A stretch of DNA of 35,622 nucleotides from Actinomycetota bacterium (GTDB lineage Bacteria > Actinomycetota > Humimicrobiia > Humimicrobiales > Humimicrobiaceae): NCBI GenBank assembly GCA_004376325.1, contig SOKC01000123.1:1-35622 (forward strand), read 5' to 3'. A program made the translations under genes and the position numbers. A model generated the notes under the pieces. The model searched no databases. It was not told the origin of the DNA and was given only the letters and a program-made list of their open reading frames with translations. Numbering within the stretch: the first letter of the stretch is position 1; every line of letters begins with the position of its first letter. Below are positions 12,955 to 28,889 of this stretch, piece by piece.

Positions 12955-13025
12955 TAAATAGTTAAAGTTAAGTTTAGAAGAAAATATAATTTATTTTGTT
13001 TTAATTATAAAAATTTTTATGGTGA

Positions 13026-13055
13026 TTGTATTAATTTTGAATTAAAATCTATAAT
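13026..13055 (+). promoter_or_regulatory. Candidate sigma70-type promoter for the 13093 gene
   Basis: TTGTAT (13026-13031), 18-nt spacer, TATAAT (13050-13055), in the 138-nt gap before the GT-C gene. Confidence 0.4.
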
Positions 13056-13092
13056 ATTTAGAATATAAGGTAACACAAAAGACGAGAATGCT

Positions 13093-14412
13093 ATGAGGGT
13101 TAAATCATTTTTTAGAAGTATTGGTAAAGTAATAGTAACCAAAGAAATTTTTGAGAATAAAAACTTATTAAGACTTCTTTATAAATATTTTCTTGTTGGT
13201 ATGCTTATTAGATTAATTCTTCTGCCATTTTTTTTCCAAAGAGATTTGTTATCAACTTATCAAAGAGCAGCACAGACTGTTTTTGGAGGTAATTTAGGTT
13301 CTGACTTTCAGCAGTTTATAATCAATTCTATTCATTCAATTTATTTATTTATAATAAAATCTATTTTACCAATAGTTGGTGAATATTCTGAAATACTACT
13401 TCAAACTGATACCTGGTCTTCCTGGGTTAATTTTATTAGTAGTGAAAATGTCTTCATAGTTATATCTCTATTTAAGGTACTATACCTTATATTTGATATT
13501 TTATGCATGTTCCTGGTTATGCGGCTTTTATTTGACGATGAACCGGAAAAGAAGCTAAAAGTTTTCAAACTTTGGGTTTTAAATCCTTTTGTGATATTCA
13601 TACTTTATATATTCGCAAGGCATGATATTATAGGGATTTTTTTAACTCTTGTTGCTCTACTTCTGGCAAAGTATAAAAGGAAGTACTGGGCAATTTTTGT
13701 TCTGGCTCTTGCTGTAGCGGCCAGGTTTTTCCCTATGATGATTCTTCCTATTTTAATTTTTTACCTGGCAGATAAGAAGAAAGATTATATTATTTTATTT
13801 TCAGCGGGTATCTCAGGTCTTATTGCAGTTGAGATATTCTCATACTTTTATTTTGGAAGAAGTGTAATATTTTCGCTTATTAATACACAACACTTTAATT
13901 ACATACTTTCTTCTAAATTAGAACTGGTAATTCATGATAGAATATTTATATTTATTGCAGTGTATATAATAATTATTCTAAGCTATTTGCATATCAGGAA
14001 AAAAACATTTGATATATTTTTAAATTATTGTGCCATTATTTACTTGATGTATGTAAGTATATGCTATTTTCATCCTCAATATCTTTTGTGGGTTGTGCCT
14101 TTCTTGATTTTAATTTTTGTTAGAAAAAAAGTACTTTACAGGTATCACTGGGTTCAATTTGCTTTACTTATGGTTATATTAATATATTGGGGAGATCTTG
14201 TAACAAAATTTGTTCTAGCCCCAATAGACCCAAAATACTTTATTTATTTAACAGGTCCTATACCAATTATAAATAGATTTTATAGTCCTTCCAAGTTTGT
14301 AAATATATTTAGAAGTGTTTTTACTGGAGTATCATTATGGATGATATATTTAATATACAAGGAGAATAAAAATATTTCGTTAGAAAACTCTATAAATAAT
14401 AATAAAAAATAG
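13093..14412 (+). CDS. GT-C-fold polytopic membrane glycosyltransferase (GT87/PIG-M-like)
   Basis: ~10 hydrophobic segments; 'LNPFVIFILYIFARHDIIGIFLTLVALLLAKYKRKYWAIFVLALAVAARFFPMMILPI'; 'CYFHPQYLLWVVPFLIL'. Confidence 0.75.
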   Translation: MRVKSFFRSIGKVIVTKEIFENKNLLRLLYKYFLVGMLIRLILLPFFFQRDLLSTYQRAAQTVFGGNLGSDFQQFIINSIHSIYLFIIKSILPIVGEYSEILLQTDTWSSWVNFISSENVFIVISLFKVLYLIFDILCMFLVMRLLFDDEPEKKLKVFKLWVLNPFVIFILYIFARHDIIGIFLTLVALLLAKYKRKYWAIFVLALAVAARFFPMMILPILIFYLADKKKDYIILFSAGISGLIAVEIFSYFYFGRSVIFSLINTQHFNYILSSKLELVIHDRIFIFIAVYIIIILSYLHIRKKTFDIFLNYCAIIYLMYVSICYFHPQYLLWVVPFLILIFVRKKVLYRYHWVQFALLMVILIYWGDLVTKFVLAPIDPKYFIYLTGPIPIINRFYSPSKFVNIFRSVFTGVSLWMIYLIYKENKNISLENSINNNKK

Positions 14413-18659: not shown

Positions 18660-18797
18660 ATGAGGAAGTTTATTCTAAAAAATAAAATAAAAATATTAGC
18701 AACTTTTTCCTTTATAATTCCTTTTATTGTTTATCTACTAACCTTAATATTATGTTATATTGGTTTTCAATTAGCAACCTCAAAAAAATATATTTGA
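18660..18797 (+). pseudogene. 5' remnant of a DUF2723/GT-C gene (45 codons)
   Basis: MRKFILKNKIKILATFSFIIPFIVYLLTLILCYIGFQLATSKKYI*. Residues 4-29 align without gaps to the N-terminus of the 24675 (-) DUF2723 protein (FILKYSILILAFLSFLIPFIIYLLTL), 19/26 identical. tttatctactaacctta is identical at 18730-18746 (+) and 24580-24596 (-). Confidence 0.6.
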
Positions 18798-18870: not shown

Positions 18871-21066
18871 ATGATTAATAAATTTGCTAAAACACTTCCA
18901 ATCATAATATTAATAATTATCATTATAATAGGGTTAGCATTAGTTATCATTTCATATTTACCTTTTGAATTAGTTAAAACAGAAATAGACATTTTTACTC
19001 AAGATGGAACTTCTGATTTTTTTACAGCAGGACTCTTATTAAAATCAAGATTTGTTGGAATTGCAATAATCATTATATGTTGGATATTTAGCACTGTTAT
19101 AAAAGAGAGCCAACAATTATTTTCTAGCACCATAAGTTCATGCCCTTCTTTCTTCAAAGAGATTGGACATAACTTTCGGAAAATAATAAAAAAAGAAAAT
19201 AAAACACACCTTTATACTTTTGTCATAATAATGACTGTAGCAATTGCAATAAGATTGTATTTCTTATTACAGCCAATACGTTATATTGAAGCTTCTACTT
19301 TTATATATTATGCCCAAAAGCCTTTATTCATTGGACTTTCAGACTATTCCTATCCTAATAATCACCTTTTCCACACTTTTTTGGTTCATATTGCTTATCT
19401 TTTTTTTGGCAGCTCATTATGGGCAGTGCGTTTACCTGCACTAATTTTTGGAATACTTATAATCCCAATGACCTATATAGTTGCACGTATGTTTTATAAT
19501 AAATACGTAGCACTTCTCTCAACTGGTATCGTAGCTTCATCATCGATACTAATTGAATATTCATCTAATGCTACTGGCTATACTACAATAATTTTCTTTT
19601 CCATAGCAATTACTGCTCTTGCAAAATATCTAATAAACAATAAAAATTCATTTGCATGGTTGCTTTTTGCTATATTGTCTATACTTGGATTTTATACAAA
19701 ACCAATTATGCTATATTCATTTGGAATTGTTATTATTTGGCTTCTAGCATCAATTATATTTAGAGACACAAAATTGACTCATATCTACCTATTTAAAAAT
19801 TTGATTATTTCCTTAATTATCACATTCATTTCAACATTTATATTATATTTACCTGTTCTATTAGGGTCTCTCATAAAGCAAACTACTATTAACAAAAATA
19901 TAAAGTTATCATGGTCAGATTTTATTACAGTATTTCCATCATCAATGCATCAGATTTGGAGTCAATGGAATAGAGATATTCCAATTGTAATAAGTATACT
20001 TCTTATAATAGGTTTTTTTACCTCATTAATTTTTCATAAAAAAATTACAAACTATAAAATTCCAATCATTCTGGCAGCATTTACCTGGCTTACCTTCTTA
20101 CTTTTAATACAAAGAGCTATACTTCCTGAACATGGATGGCTATTTTTATTACCTCTTTTTATAGTGGTATCATCTGCAGGAATAATCTTCCTACTGGGGT
20201 TAGTTTTTTCTAAGATGAGAAATTACAAGTCTTTAGTATTCTCTATTATCGCTCTCATTTTATCAATAGGTCTTGGTTTCACAGTTTTTTTCTCCCAATC
20301 AATCTTTTATTCTAATGAAAAAGAAACACTTAGAGATGCAGAAGAAATTACCATCATGCTAAAATATCATCTTAAATCTGGTGATAGAATTGTGGCCAGT
20401 CCTCCCTCTGACTTACCATTAGTGTATTATTTTAATAAACACAATATTTCAACTGATTACTTATTATATACTGATTTCTATTCAAGCACTCGCGTATTTA
20501 TAATAGAGAATAAGTCAATTAAACAAACAATAAATGATGTCTTAAAATATCATAATTTATCACTTACAGGCTTTAGTAAGCCAGAGCTATTCAGTGAATT
20601 TGCATCTGCTTATATTTACAAAACAAATAACTTAAAATTTGAAAGTAAACTCATCCTTGATTTTAGAGAATATAGTAATGGTGAATTTCAAAATTCAAAA
20701 TTATCTTCGGACAAAAAAGAAATAATAATTGAAGAGGGTGAAAATAAACTTAAAATATGCAAAATACCGATTACAATCAATAGTGGTACTGATTATCTTA
20801 TTAGTTTTAAAATAAAGAAAACTGAAAATTTAGACAATGTTATATATTTTGACCTTTTTGGTGAATATTACGATAGGCCTGAGCAGGAATTTAATTTAAA
20901 ACCTGAGAAAATTAGTGAAGATTATACACAAATAGTTGAAGTTTTAAATTCTAATAAAGTCCCCCCTAATATTGATATTTATTTTAGAATATTTACTTAT
21001 TCTACTGGAGAAGCGATAATCAAAGATCTAGAAATCTATGATATTACAACCTGTACACAACCATAA
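18871..21066 (+). CDS. GT-C glycosyltransferase (ArnT/PMT_2-like) with C-terminal beta-sandwich (CBM-like) domain
   Basis: 'IRYIEASTFIYYAQKPLF...SYPNNHLFHTFLVHIAYLFFGSSLWAVRLPALIFGILIIPMTYIVARMFYNKYVALLST' is the PMT_2 pattern; soluble C-terminus 'SKLILDFREYSNGEFQNSK...NYDRPEQEFNL'-like beta-rich tail. Confidence 0.8.
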   Translation: MINKFAKTLPIIILIIIIIIGLALVIISYLPFELVKTEIDIFTQDGTSDFFTAGLLLKSRFVGIAIIIICWIFSTVIKESQQLFSSTISSCPSFFKEIGHNFRKIIKKENKTHLYTFVIIMTVAIAIRLYFLLQPIRYIEASTFIYYAQKPLFIGLSDYSYPNNHLFHTFLVHIAYLFFGSSLWAVRLPALIFGILIIPMTYIVARMFYNKYVALLSTGIVASSSILIEYSSNATGYTTIIFFSIAITALAKYLINNKNSFAWLLFAILSILGFYTKPIMLYSFGIVIIWLLASIIFRDTKLTHIYLFKNLIISLIITFISTFILYLPVLLGSLIKQTTINKNIKLSWSDFITVFPSSMHQIWSQWNRDIPIVISILLIIGFFTSLIFHKKITNYKIPIILAAFTWLTFLLLIQRAILPEHGWLFLLPLFIVVSSAGIIFLLGLVFSKMRNYKSLVFSIIALILSIGLGFTVFFSQSIFYSNEKETLRDAEEITIMLKYHLKSGDRIVASPPSDLPLVYYFNKHNISTDYLLYTDFYSSTRVFIIENKSIKQTINDVLKYHNLSLTGFSKPELFSEFASAYIYKTNNLKFESKLILDFREYSNGEFQNSKLSSDKKEIIIEEGENKLKICKIPITINSGTDYLISFKIKKTENLDNVIYFDLFGEYYDRPEQEFNLKPEKISEDYTQIVEVLNSNKVPPNIDIYFRIFTYSTGEAIIKDLEIYDITTCTQP

Positions 21067-22785: not shown

Positions 22786-24675
22786 CTATCCTTTTATTTC
22801 TATTTCAATATCATCAGAGTTAATATATACGTCATGTGCAGTAATCCTAAACTTCACTTGAGATTTCCCAGGCCTGGTTCCTCTCAATTTTAAAATTAAA
22901 TTAATTTCATCTTCTGCCTCTACCACATATGAACCGCTTACCCACATATACATGCCTCTACTTATGCCAGGATCCTGATTAATATATCCCTCAGGTTCAA
23001 CCTCTACAAGCTCAATATTATCAGGGAGTTCAAGCTCAAGTGAAGAAATCTTTACTCTTTTTTTATTTTTATTTTTTATTATATATTCGACAGTAAATTT
23101 TTCACCAAATTTTTTACTATATTCATCAATTACATATTCAATTTTAATACTTACCTTTGGACTTACTACTTTATATAGTTCCAAAAATTCTTTATACCTG
23201 GGCCAATAATACTGTTTACCTATGCGCTCTGTGTTAAATTGTAATTTAAGAAAATTTTTATTTCCAACAAAATATACAGGAACATCCTTCTCAAGACTTT
23301 CAACCATATCCCCAACTGAATATTTAGGGTTGTTATGATAAATAAACTCTATTTCCTTATCCCCATATTCATATTCGTTCACAAACATACCAACATTGCT
23401 TGAGAATGCAAGTACATACATAATCGAATTTTCTTCCATGTTATCAATAGCCTTGTCCCAGAATTTATAAACATCTCCAGGTTCAGAACGGTCAACTCTA
23501 TTATAATTAGCATATATTAGTGAAAAAGGTTGGAAGACAAAAAATAAAAATATAATTGATAACGAAAAATATTTTAAAATGTTATCTATTTTTAATATTT
23601 TCTTATTAGATAATAACTTTTCAAATACAAATTTAATTGAACCAACTATAAGTAAAAATCCAAATGAAATGTAAATAGACATAATTAGCATTATATTTAG
23701 TACATAATTAGGGACTGCCCAGCCTATGTATTGAGTTATTATAGCAAGGTTAAAGATTATTAATAAAAGTGAGGAAATAGCAAATTTTTTATTTTTCTTA
23801 ATTAAATAGACAAATCCTATGATTGATAAAATTATTAATAGAATGCCATAATTCTTATAAATAATCTCTAAATAGTCCTTAAAAACTTCAAAAGCTGTTG
23901 AAATAGGCCTATCCCCAAAACTGCCACCATGAATTTTTCCCGATGTTGTTCTTCCAGTAACATAGTAAATGAATGTCTTAAAACTAGTTACACTTCCATA
24001 TCCCTGAAGCGATCTTATTGGAAGATAAATATATGATAAAAGTGGTAAAATAAAACATAATAGACTGATTGGGATTACTTTAAGGTTTCTAAAAATTCTT
24101 GGGTTTATAATAATTATATATATAAGAAATGCTGGCATTATAAAAAACGCAATAGGATGATTTGTTAAACTTAAACCCAAACAAAAGAAAAAAAAGTATA
24201 GATGTTTTCTTTCTCTACTTCCATTATATAGCAGTGCTGAGAAAACCACCAAGGCTATAAAAAAACTATTTAACGTATCAAACTCCAACCTATTGGCTAC
24301 GCTCCAAAATGGATACACAAAAGCAAATGTAAAAGAACTTATTAAGCTTATTAACTCATTTTTTACAAGCTTATTTATTGATAAAAATAAAAATAAAATT
24401 GTAAGTGCCCCAAATATTGCTGAAAATAAATTAAGTCTATAAGCTAAATCACCAACTGGTAAATATGTGATTAGTTTGCCAAGTAGCGAAAAAGTTGGAT
24501 ACCCGGTTGGAACAAAGATTTGCATCTTGGGTATTTGAAGTGCATACCAGCTTGTATCCCCTCCAACCAATTTACGCTCTAAGGTTAGTAGATAAATAAT
24601 AAAGGGTATTAAAAATGACAAAAACGCTAATATTAATATACTATATTTTAAAATAAAATTTTTTAATTTTATCAC
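22786..24675 (-). CDS. DUF2723 (TMEM260-like) GT-C protein with C-terminal DUF11/CARDB-like beta domain
   Basis: 'LVGGDTSWYALQIPKMQIFVPTGYPTFSLLGKLITYLPVGDLAYRLNLFSAIFGALTI' is the DUF2723 N-terminal pattern; C-terminal ~110 aa 'VSIKIEYVIDEYSKKFGEKFTVEYIIKNKNKKRVKISSLELELPDNIELVEVEPEG' resembles DUF11. Confidence 0.82.
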   Translation of the reverse strand: MIKLKNFILKYSILILAFLSFLIPFIIYLLTLERKLVGGDTSWYALQIPKMQIFVPTGYPTFSLLGKLITYLPVGDLAYRLNLFSAIFGALTILFLFLSINKLVKNELISLISSFTFAFVYPFWSVANRLEFDTLNSFFIALVVFSALLYNGSRERKHLYFFFFCLGLSLTNHPIAFFIMPAFLIYIIIINPRIFRNLKVIPISLLCFILPLLSYIYLPIRSLQGYGSVTSFKTFIYYVTGRTTSGKIHGGSFGDRPISTAFEVFKDYLEIIYKNYGILLIILSIIGFVYLIKKNKKFAISSLLLIIFNLAIITQYIGWAVPNYVLNIMLIMSIYISFGFLLIVGSIKFVFEKLLSNKKILKIDNILKYFSLSIIFLFFVFQPFSLIYANYNRVDRSEPGDVYKFWDKAIDNMEENSIMYVLAFSSNVGMFVNEYEYGDKEIEFIYHNNPKYSVGDMVESLEKDVPVYFVGNKNFLKLQFNTERIGKQYYWPRYKEFLELYKVVSPKVSIKIEYVIDEYSKKFGEKFTVEYIIKNKNKKRVKISSLELELPDNIELVEVEPEGYINQDPGISRGMYMWVSGSYVVEAEDEINLILKLRGTRPGKSQVKFRITAHDVYINSDDIEIEIKG

Positions 24676-24926: not shown

Positions 24927-25613
24927 TTGGAAAATAAAGTTAATATATATGTAGTTGTACCAGCTTACAACGAAGAAAACACCATCTCTGATGTTATTAC
25001 AAATCTAAAAAATAACAATTACAAAAATATAATTGTTATAGATGATGGGTCTACAGATTCTACTTATAAAATTGCAAAAGAAAACAAAACTATTGTAATA
25101 AAGCATCCAATTAATTTAGGTGCAGGTGCAGCTGTAAAGACTGGGACTGATTATGCATTGTCAATAGGTGCAGATATTATAATTATTTTTGATGCAGATG
25201 GTCAACATATGGCAAAAGACATAAATAATTTAATAAAACCTATTATAAATAAAGAAGTAGATGTTACACTAGGCTCAAGATTTTTGGATAAAAAAAGCAA
25301 TGTTCCTCTACTAAAAAAAATAATCTTAAAAGGTGGTGTAGTATTGGTATTTCTAATGTATGGAATTTTGCTAACTGATGCACATAATGGTCTTAAAGCC
25401 TTGAGTAGAAAGGCAGCTGAAAGAATAATTATCAATGCAAGAGGTTGGGAATATTGTTCTGAAATAATAGAAGAAATAAAAATAAAAAAAATAAAATACA
25501 AAGAAATTCCTGTAACCATAAAATACTCATCATATTCAATTAAAAAAGGCCAAAAAATCTATAATAGCTTAAACATTTTTCTGAAAATGATAAAAAAATG
25601 GCTCATAGAATAA
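24927..25613 (+). CDS. GT2 polyprenyl-phosphate sugar (DPM/DPG-synthase-like) synthase
   Basis: 'VVPAYNEENTISDVI...IIVIDDGSTDSTYKIAKE...HPINLGAGAAVKTGTDYAL...IIIFDADGQHMAKDINNLI...VTLGSRFL'. TTG start. Confidence 0.9.
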   Translation: MENKVNIYVVVPAYNEENTISDVITNLKNNNYKNIIVIDDGSTDSTYKIAKENKTIVIKHPINLGAGAAVKTGTDYALSIGADIIIIFDADGQHMAKDINNLIKPIINKEVDVTLGSRFLDKKSNVPLLKKIILKGGVVLVFLMYGILLTDAHNGLKALSRKAAERIIINARGWEYCSEIIEEIKIKKIKYKEIPVTIKYSSYSIKKGQKIYNSLNIFLKMIKKWLIE

Positions 25614-25629
25614 AAATAGGAGGATAAAA

Positions 25630-25977
25630 ATGATAAAACCGATCCAAGTTATTGCTATTGTATTCGGCATTTTTGCTTTAATTAAAGTAATTCTGAAAAT
25701 GAAAAATAGAAAATTATCACTGAATGAGTTCATATTTTGGTGTTCTATATGGGTGGTTCTTATAGTTTTATCAATCTTTCCACAAATTAGTGGAAATATT
25801 GCAGATTTTTTTGGTTTCACCAGAGGAATTGATTTTTTCATTGTATCAAGTATCTTATTAATATTTTACCTAATATTTAGAATATATATTAAATTAGAAG
25901 AATTAGACGATAAGATTACAAAATTGGCAAGAAGTATCGCAATTAAAGAAATAGCCAATAATATAAATAAAACTTAA
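25630..25977 (+). CDS. DUF2304 membrane protein
   Basis: Three hydrophobic segments plus 'EFIFWCSIWVVLIVLSIFPQISGNIADFFGFTRGIDFFIVSSILLIFYLIFRIYIKLEELDDKITKLAR', a typical DUF2304 partner of GT2. Confidence 0.9.
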   Translation: MIKPIQVIAIVFGIFALIKVILKMKNRKLSLNEFIFWCSIWVVLIVLSIFPQISGNIADFFGFTRGIDFFIVSSILLIFYLIFRIYIKLEELDDKITKLARSIAIKEIANNINKT

Positions 25978-25989
25978 AAAGTAAAAAAA

Positions 25990-27024
25990 TTGCCAGCACT
26001 AACTAAGAATAAAAAACTTATAATCAGACTTTTAATAAGCATTACAATTACCGTTTTCTTCATTTATTTTATTGTCAAAAATTTAAATATAAATGATTTT
26101 AAAAACCTTATTAACAACATAAATATCTACTTTATATTAATTGCTTTAAGTATACACACAATATGTTACCTTGTAAGAAGTTTAAGAATTTTAGTTTTAC
26201 TTAAAATCAAATTTTCTGAATTTAATAATATTTTCTTTACAGTCTCAAGACATTATATTTTAAATAAAATCCTTCCTGTAAGAATAGGAGAATTATCTCT
26301 TGTATACTTTCTTAAAAATGAACAAGAAATATCTTATACTAAAGGTTTGGGAGCATTACTTTACTTAAGAATTTTAGATTTACTAGCTGTGCCCTTATTT
26401 TTTATTGTAGCTTTTTCAATCAACTTTTCATCCTTTTCTAACTCAAATAACATAATTATATTACTTATCTTCTTAATTCTCTTTATAATGCTATTTTTTG
26501 TTTTTATTTTCTTAGGTAAGATTTTAAACTTAATTTTAAAATTTCTAAAATTATTACCAAAAAAAATAAAGTGGCTTGAAAAAAATATTTATTTTAAATT
26601 TTTAGAAAAATATAAAAATTTAGCTGATGAAATCAACAAATTTATTAAACTCAAAACAAATATAAAAGTAATTATTCTAACAATATTAAATAGATTATTA
26701 AACTCCCTGGTAGCATACACTATCTTTTTTGGATTTGGAATAAGTATAGGATTTATTAATTTTATAATAGGCTCTACCCTATCCATACTAACCGAAGCAT
26801 TACCAGTTAGTGGAATTGGTAGTTTTGGCACTTTTGAAGCTGGTTGGACACTAGGATTTGTATTAATCGGTTATAACCAGAAGCTTTCATTATTAACAGG
26901 ATTTGGAGTAAACATAATATTTTTTATTTTTACCATATTCCTATTAATTATTAGCTTCTTCTTATCTAAATATAGGGAAATTATTACAAGAAAGTTTCTA
27001 AAATTGGTCAAAGGTAATAGTTGA
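25990..27024 (+). CDS. UPF0104 / LPG-synthase-TM family (flippase-like) membrane protein
   Basis: 'RHYILNKILPVRIGELSLVYFLKNEQEISYTKGLGALLYLRILDLLAVPLF', 'EALPVSGIGSFGTFEAGWTLGFVLIGY'; TTG start; 3' end overlaps the next ORF by TTGA. Confidence 0.87.
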   Translation: MPALTKNKKLIIRLLISITITVFFIYFIVKNLNINDFKNLINNINIYFILIALSIHTICYLVRSLRILVLLKIKFSEFNNIFFTVSRHYILNKILPVRIGELSLVYFLKNEQEISYTKGLGALLYLRILDLLAVPLFFIVAFSINFSSFSNSNNIIILLIFLILFIMLFFVFIFLGKILNLILKFLKLLPKKIKWLEKNIYFKFLEKYKNLADEINKFIKLKTNIKVIILTILNRLLNSLVAYTIFFGFGISIGFINFIIGSTLSILTEALPVSGIGSFGTFEAGWTLGFVLIGYNQKLSLLTGFGVNIIFFIFTIFLLIISFFLSKYREIITRKFLKLVKGNS

Positions 27025-28889
27025 TTATAGATGATGGTAGTTCAGATAACACAGGTATGAGTGGTATTAGTAAATTTTTAAAATATAATAAAAGATGGAT
27101 TTATCTTGCAGTTATAATTGTTATTATAGCTGCTGCAGCATCATATTCTACATATTATTATTTTAAGGTTTACCTGACAAGGCCAAATTTTGATGATGAG
27201 TCATTTAATTTTATATCCAGTGATTCAAACGAATATGTAAAACCCGGGGAACAAATAACATATATAATAAATTATAAGAATACGGGAAACAGGGATGTAG
27301 ATAATCTGGAAATAGAGTCAAAGGTACCAGAACATGCAGTTTTTATATCATCAAACCATGATGAAATTTTAGAAAATACCAGTGGAGCATTAACTTTTAA
27401 AGTTGGTGATGTTGAAAAGGATAGAAAGGGTACAATAGCTTTTACAGTTGAAGTAAACAAACCACTGGATGATGGTACTTTGATTGTATTTGATGGAGCG
27501 AAATTTAATTATAAGATTGGCCAGGATACTTTTAATAGAGAGGTCAGTGAAGATTTAAGTAATAAAGTTGAAAGCAGTCCCGATCTAAATAACTTTGATT
27601 TAGAAGCTGTTGATATAAATGGCGGAGTATTAAGATTAGGTGACATAATACAATATAAACTGGTAGTGGAAAATACTGGCGATATGAACGCTGCTAATGT
27701 AGAAATCAAAAGTAATTTATCAAAAAATGTAACTATAGTTGAAAGTTCTATTACTGATTCAGGTGAGTATAAGAGTAGTAGTGTCTTATGGAATATTGAT
27801 AATTTAGAAATAAATAAACCTAAAACTTTTTCATTTAAAGTCATAGTAAATGATGATTTAACTTCTGAAGAACTTATTACTAATAGTAGTGCCTTAAAAT
27901 ATGGGTCTGATGTTGTCATTGAAAAATCAGTAGAAGAAAAACTGAGCCTTTTTACTGATTTAACTACGTCAGAGGCATTTTTATATGATGTAAATGGTGG
28001 GCATCTTTGGGCTGGTGAGACCATAAATGCAAAAATTGTCATTAGAAATACTGGTGAAAAAGCAGAAGAAAGTTATCGGCTTATTTGTCCTACACCAGGG
28101 GGAGCAACTTATATCAGCAGGTCAGGTACTGCTGAAGGAATTAGCTGGAGTGATGATATAAGAGGACTGATTTGGGACTTAAAGAATCTGGGAGTGGGGG
28201 AAGAAAAAGAAATAATTTTTAATATGAAGGTAAATGAAAGTTTGGTTAATTCAGGTGGGGTAATAACTACCGATTTTAAGATTGAAAGCAGTAGTGGAGA
28301 AATAGAAATACCGTCCAAAAGTATAAATGTTAGAGGGCGTGTTAATATGACTATCGTAGCGATGGGTGATTCTTTAATAACCAAGTCTAATTGGGTGCAA
28401 ACGTTTGATGAACTTCTGGAAGCTAATTATCCATATGCAGATTATAATACGATTGCAAGTGCAAAGGGTGGTGAAATGGCTCGTAACGGTTATGCAAGAT
28501 TTGACAGCACAGTTGCAGTTCATAATCCACAAATAATCATAATAGCTTATGGGACTAATGATGCTGGCGTTGGACTTTGGAATTTCAGAGACAATCTGGA
28601 AGGTATTGTGATTAAGTCAAAGAATTTAGGTGCGAGAGTGTTTATAAATCTTATTGGTCCTATTGACTGGCCGGGGAAAGAAGATTATCCTAAATATAAT
28701 GATGAGATTAGACAAATTGCTGCCAGAAATGGTGCTGTTGTTATAGATGTATTGACTCCTCTTTCACAAAACCCAGGGGGATATTTTGTTGATAGAATGC
28801 ATTACAGTTCCGCTGGTGCTTCAGTTGTAGCACATACAGTATTTAGTTATGTCTCTCAATATCTGGGTGATATTGGTCAGAGGCTGTAA
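27021..28889 (+). CDS. Membrane-anchored protein with three DUF11-like repeats and C-terminal SGNH/GDSL hydrolase domain
   Basis: TM (WIYLAVIIVIIAAAA); three ~125-aa repeats (27201-27575, 27582-27950, 27963-28337) with '(V/A)GD..QY.(L/I)..(N/K)NTG(D/N)...N.EI.S' pattern; SGNH motifs GDS, KGGEMARNG, GTND, DRMHYSSAG. ATG at 27057 (MSGISKFLK) may be the native start. Confidence 0.85.
   Translation: MIIDDGSSDNTGMSGISKFLKYNKRWIYLAVIIVIIAAAASYSTYYYFKVYLTRPNFDDESFNFISSDSNEYVKPGEQITYIINYKNTGNRDVDNLEIESKVPEHAVFISSNHDEILENTSGALTFKVGDVEKDRKGTIAFTVEVNKPLDDGTLIVFDGAKFNYKIGQDTFNREVSEDLSNKVESSPDLNNFDLEAVDINGGVLRLGDIIQYKLVVENTGDMNAANVEIKSNLSKNVTIVESSITDSGEYKSSSVLWNIDNLEINKPKTFSFKVIVNDDLTSEELITNSSALKYGSDVVIEKSVEEKLSLFTDLTTSEAFLYDVNGGHLWAGETINAKIVIRNTGEKAEESYRLICPTPGGATYISRSGTAEGISWSDDIRGLIWDLKNLGVGEEKEIIFNMKVNESLVNSGGVITTDFKIESSSGEIEIPSKSINVRGRVNMTIVAMGDSLITKSNWVQTFDELLEANYPYADYNTIASAKGGEMARNGYARFDSTVAVHNPQIIIIAYGTNDAGVGLWNFRDNLEGIVIKSKNLGARVFINLIGPIDWPGKEDYPKYNDEIRQIAARNGAVVIDVLTPLSQNPGGYFVDRMHYSSAGASVVAHTVFSYVSQYLGDIGQRL

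Follow-up and report, generated by a model that had tools for sequence, protein, structure and literature searches.

A 36-base glycosyltransferase family 2 fragment fused in frame to a DUF11-SGNH gene, a probable recombination scar in a surface-glycan locus

A short leader at the 5′ end of a membrane-anchored DUF11-SGNH gene is likely to be a crumb of a glycosyltransferase family 2 (GT2) gene left at an illegitimate-recombination junction, open and in frame, with the start of the SGNH gene probably at TTG 27021. The leader (27021–27056, + strand, 36 bases) reads LIIDDGSSDNTG, the nucleotide-binding active-site motif of GT2 proteins. It lies in the window, the whole stretch of 35,622 bases that was analysed, which is contig C64 of a draft genome of 1.33 Mb in 140 contigs, 95 % complete. 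What is described is an ordinary scar of gene reshuffling, carried by a single genome among the relatives examined.

The open reading frame from TTG 27021 to 28889 encodes 622 aa, starts (L/M)IIDDGSSDNTG-MSGISKFLKYNKRW, and continues after the motif as MSGISKFLKYNKRWIYLAV. There is no stop between the leader and the DUF11-SGNH coding sequence, with which it shares a frame. The codon before the TTG is TAG (27018–27020), the frame upstream of the leader being closed by TAA TAG. When scored by a position-specific matrix built from 42 GT2 motifs of relatives, the leader reached 33.7 bits, within the range of the true GT2 motifs (30.1–44.0 bits, n=42), against a null maximum of 9.1 bits across the six frames of 30 Markov-shuffled windows. 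It therefore carries the VIDDGSxDxT-type motif of Glycosyltransferase family 2. With scores so far apart, it is exceedingly improbable that this is a native 5′ region resembling a GT2 motif by chance, even though its source gene was not found and the 9-mer ATTATAGAT also occurs in the native upstream region of the relative G003. Only 12 residues are present of a full GT-A domain of about 160, and Pfam did not find PF00535 in the 622-aa reading frame. The first-pass annotation had reported a near-consensus GT2 motif at the start of this reading frame, fused in frame directly after a stop codon and adjoined by no further GT2 homology, and all of this is borne out.

The protein downstream was also correctly named as DUF11-SGNH. 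Its native part (27057–28889, + strand, 610 aa) contains DUF11 repeats (PF01345) and a C-terminal GDSL/SGNH domain (PF13472, Lipase_GDSL_2, E 3.3e-14), with the catalytic blocks GDS at residue 437, GTND at 499, and DRMH at 579. This part is 84 % identical from residue 1 to that of the closest relative, G011, and 73 % identical to that of G006. The homology with G011 starts at ATG 27057; the 11 bases upstream of the G011 start codon differ from those of the window, the G011 contig ends there, and no overlapping contig extending it upstream of the start codon was found. The comparison set comprised 18 SGNH copies from relatives, and for 17 of these the upstream sequence extended over 1 kb or more. 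In none of the 18 did the N-terminal tail, or the stretch of 400 bases upstream, hold a GT2-like motif. Orthologues sharing this leader had been named beforehand as the observation that would overturn the scar reading, and this search leaves that reading standing. The cytoplasmic tails of the relative SGNH proteins vary widely in length and sequence, therefore extra residues before the membrane anchor are tolerated.

Gene order places the leader at a break. In the relatives G003 and G027, TMEM260, GT2, DUF2304, and SGNH genes follow one another in a single direction, the TMEM260 match there being the C-terminal part, and DUF2304 is directly 5′ of SGNH. TMEM260, GT2, and DUF2304 remain grouped in other members of the family, and TMEM260 genes precede SGNH in G002, G006, G008, and G022. 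In these last four genomes (loci L032–L036), SGNH is separated from the full TMEM260 gene by a second, C-terminal TMEM260-like match, which suggests a local duplication. In the window, the TMEM260-like gene (22786–24675) is on the − strand, inverted relative to GT2 and DUF2304, with which it is co-directional in relatives. The intact GT2 gene (24927–25613, + strand) belongs to the conserved TMEM260-GT2-DUF2304 run and is polyprenyl-phosphate-sugar-synthase-like, its best NCBIfam match being to a polyprenyl-phospho-sugar synthase model with a score under that model's cut-off. It is followed by the DUF2304 gene (25630–25977, + strand). In the window alone, a flippase-like gene (25990–27024, + strand; LPG_synthase_TM, PF03706, E 1e-27; TIGR00374) stands between DUF2304 and SGNH. 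Its best relative across the family and 397 phylum genomes is no more than 29 % identical, and no plasmid-borne relative was found. As this gene is peculiar to this genome and absent between DUF2304 and SGNH in G003 and G027, the junction at 27021–27056 coincides with one end of a genome-specific segment.

On the 3′ side of SGNH, the genes for LPG4, an acyltransferase, an epimerase, a radical SAM protein, GT2c, and a second epimerase are colinear with those of G011 and G006, indicating that the sequences flanking the junction are parts of one locus. In locus L036 (G022:C4, 4366–5597), the match to the LPG4 homologue is split into two pieces that overlap, which may point to a frameshift or a partial duplication. 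Since the window is a contig from a 140-contig draft and the contig of the closest relative ends 11 bases upstream of the equivalent start codon, an assembly chimera joining two unrelated molecules at 27021–27056 was considered; it is unlikely. DUF2304 and SGNH, which flank the segment upstream and downstream, adjoin each other in G003 and G027, which shows that the two sides belong together, and no long repeat of the 281 bases around the junction exists elsewhere in the genome to cause a misjoin. Furthermore, joining by k-mers would call for the 36-mer in each of the two sources, and the GT2-SGNH fusion would then already have to exist in one of them.

A sharp base-composition step at this point had been read as a sign of foreign DNA, with an AT-rich cassette ending here. 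This does not hold. Total GC is 0.229 in the flippase-like gene versus 0.337 in SGNH, whereas GC3 is alike in the two (0.192 and 0.210), the difference lying in codon positions 1 and 2. GC at four-fold sites differs somewhat (0.167 and 0.245, respectively), though not beyond the spread among the genes of the window (0.120–0.331). The step in total GC arises because a hydrophobic membrane protein adjoins a secreted one, and reflects their amino acid composition. Total GC steps between adjacent genes are therefore worth checking at synonymous positions.

The leader also shares a 13-mer (27025–27037) with the intact GT2 gene (25036–25048), as had been pointed out. The sharing is real; a recent common origin does not follow from it, given that such a match has a probability of about 7 % if both sites merely encode [VI]IDDG with local codon usage. 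Over the 36-mer, the leader and this GT2 gene (at 25032) are identical at 23 of 36 bases, with 21.8 of 36 expected for back-translated motifs, and duplication of the neighbouring GT2 gene is not supported as the origin of the leader. The short size of the leader and the 13-mer in common with a GT2 gene 2 kb upstream would suit a templated insertion, copied during repair from another GT2 gene of the same genome. This is very unlikely, as the best GT2 motif of the genome has only the identity that the protein motif alone predicts and the assembled genome contains no match to the leader within 3 mismatches. Nor was a copy within 3 mismatches present in the family or in the 397 phylum genomes, and no exact match to the 36-mer was found in viral contigs. 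Besides the 13-mer family, a search for repeats at the junction returned only short AT-rich matches.

Thus, the scar with its GT2 crumb stands on the motif, its absence in relatives, and the break in gene order, while the AT-rich cassette and the 13-mer drop out as arguments for it. As expected of a gene remnant, the fragment is homologous to a gene family with most of the gene missing, is absent from the orthologous loci, and sits where gene order breaks. An intact source gene was not recovered from the sequences searched; it would be supportive of a remnant, and does not strictly define one, as donors can be unsampled. What is inferred is the recombination itself and the loss of the remaining GT2 sequence. 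That the bulk of a GT2 gene disappeared from this very place, as first proposed, is one way in which this may have happened, and no relative examined has an intact GT2 gene directly 5′ of SGNH. The crumb either came in from an unsampled donor together with the flippase segment or is the residue of a GT2 gene once present here, and the data are compatible with both.

The proposed course of events is as follows. In a surface-glycan locus that changes fast, illegitimate recombination would have made the junction. Sequence inserted or replaced between the DUF2304 and SGNH genes would have brought in the flippase-like gene and left an internal GT2 crumb, with the native upstream region of SGNH replaced up to its start codon. 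By chance the crumb would have been open and in frame, so that the SGNH protein would have gained 12 extra cytoplasmic residues before its membrane anchor.

Direct reading places the TTG start of the extended SGNH reading frame in a TTGA (27021–27024, + strand) that overlaps the TGA stop of the flippase-like gene. An AAAGG (27010–27014, + strand), which is Shine–Dalgarno-like and forms a duplex of −4.0 kcal/mol with a generic anti-Shine–Dalgarno sequence, lies 6 nt before the TTG, which is a workable spacing. By the same generic duplex, the best stretch available to ATG 27057 runs right up to the ATG, and it is unlikely to be a functional ribosome site. Given the overlap, the AAAGG, and the lack of a usable site before ATG 27057, TTG 27021 is the likeliest start, and translation of SGNH probably begins there. 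The scar may have taken the place of an initiation region that SGNH had lost. The overlap would also be consistent with translational coupling of SGNH to the flippase-like gene. A promoter scan of the region returned many promoter-like matches with little discrimination.

These features, together with a leader that is open in frame with every GT2 consensus residue intact, would be expected if selection had kept it, either as a functional N-terminal extension or as a retained ribosome site and start codon, which is compatible with its origin as a scar. Yet the leader occurs in one genome only, the tails of relatives are free to vary in length and sequence, the in-frame state has a 1 in 3 chance, and a clear Shine–Dalgarno site is missing from many genes of the window. 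Retention by selection is accordingly rather doubtful. Equally tentative is the suggestion that the scar is in use, with the GT2 crumb supplying a start codon coupled to the flippase-like gene, and giving a surface hydrolase, deprived of its own region for starting translation, a new N-terminal tail.

A further gene remnant was observed in the window and counts in favour of the scar reading. At 18660–18764 (+ strand), MRKFILKNKIKILATFSFIIPFIVYLLTL represents the first 29–35 residues of a TMEM260-like protein, the remainder being lost; it is identical at 19 of 29 residues to the N-terminus of the intact TMEM260-like gene at 22786–24675, and is directly upstream of a PMT-like gene at 18871. A match at about 13018–13121 (− strand) is a possible but weak third case of a TMEM260 N-terminal remnant; it reaches 33 % over 30 residues, with E 7e-4 against a small database, and may be mere membrane-segment similarity.

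The probable scar upstream of SGNH illustrates on a small scale that a glycan locus, when reshuffled, leaves behind fragments of genes, and that these can turn into new protein ends. Its broader lesson is a modest one: where a motif match is found in a short leader, a scar should be considered before a domain.

Literature searches covering remnants of genes in glycan loci, and also DUF11-SGNH proteins, returned little of relevance here. Compared with GT2 proteins (PF00535), the 12 residues of the leader fit the nucleotide-binding active-site motif, but the rest of the domain is absent and enzyme activity is impossible. The SGNH protein has the same domain order and catalytic blocks as the membrane-anchored DUF11-GDSL/SGNH proteins of its bacterial family, G011 being the nearest of these, and differs in that, among the copies examined, only this one has a GT2-derived leader. 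A parallel is the aliD remnant, the first 153–174 nt of a gene of 1,959 nt, which is present in nearly all pneumococcal cps loci (PMC5111408). Both are short leftovers of a lost gene in a recombining surface-glycan locus; in contrast to aliD, the crumb described here is internal to its gene, consists of 36 bases only, runs in frame into the following gene, and is found in a low-GC lineage recorded as Actinomycetota. Surface-polysaccharide loci are thus already known to contain small gene residues, and that described here is unusual solely because it is internal, is very short, and keeps the frame.
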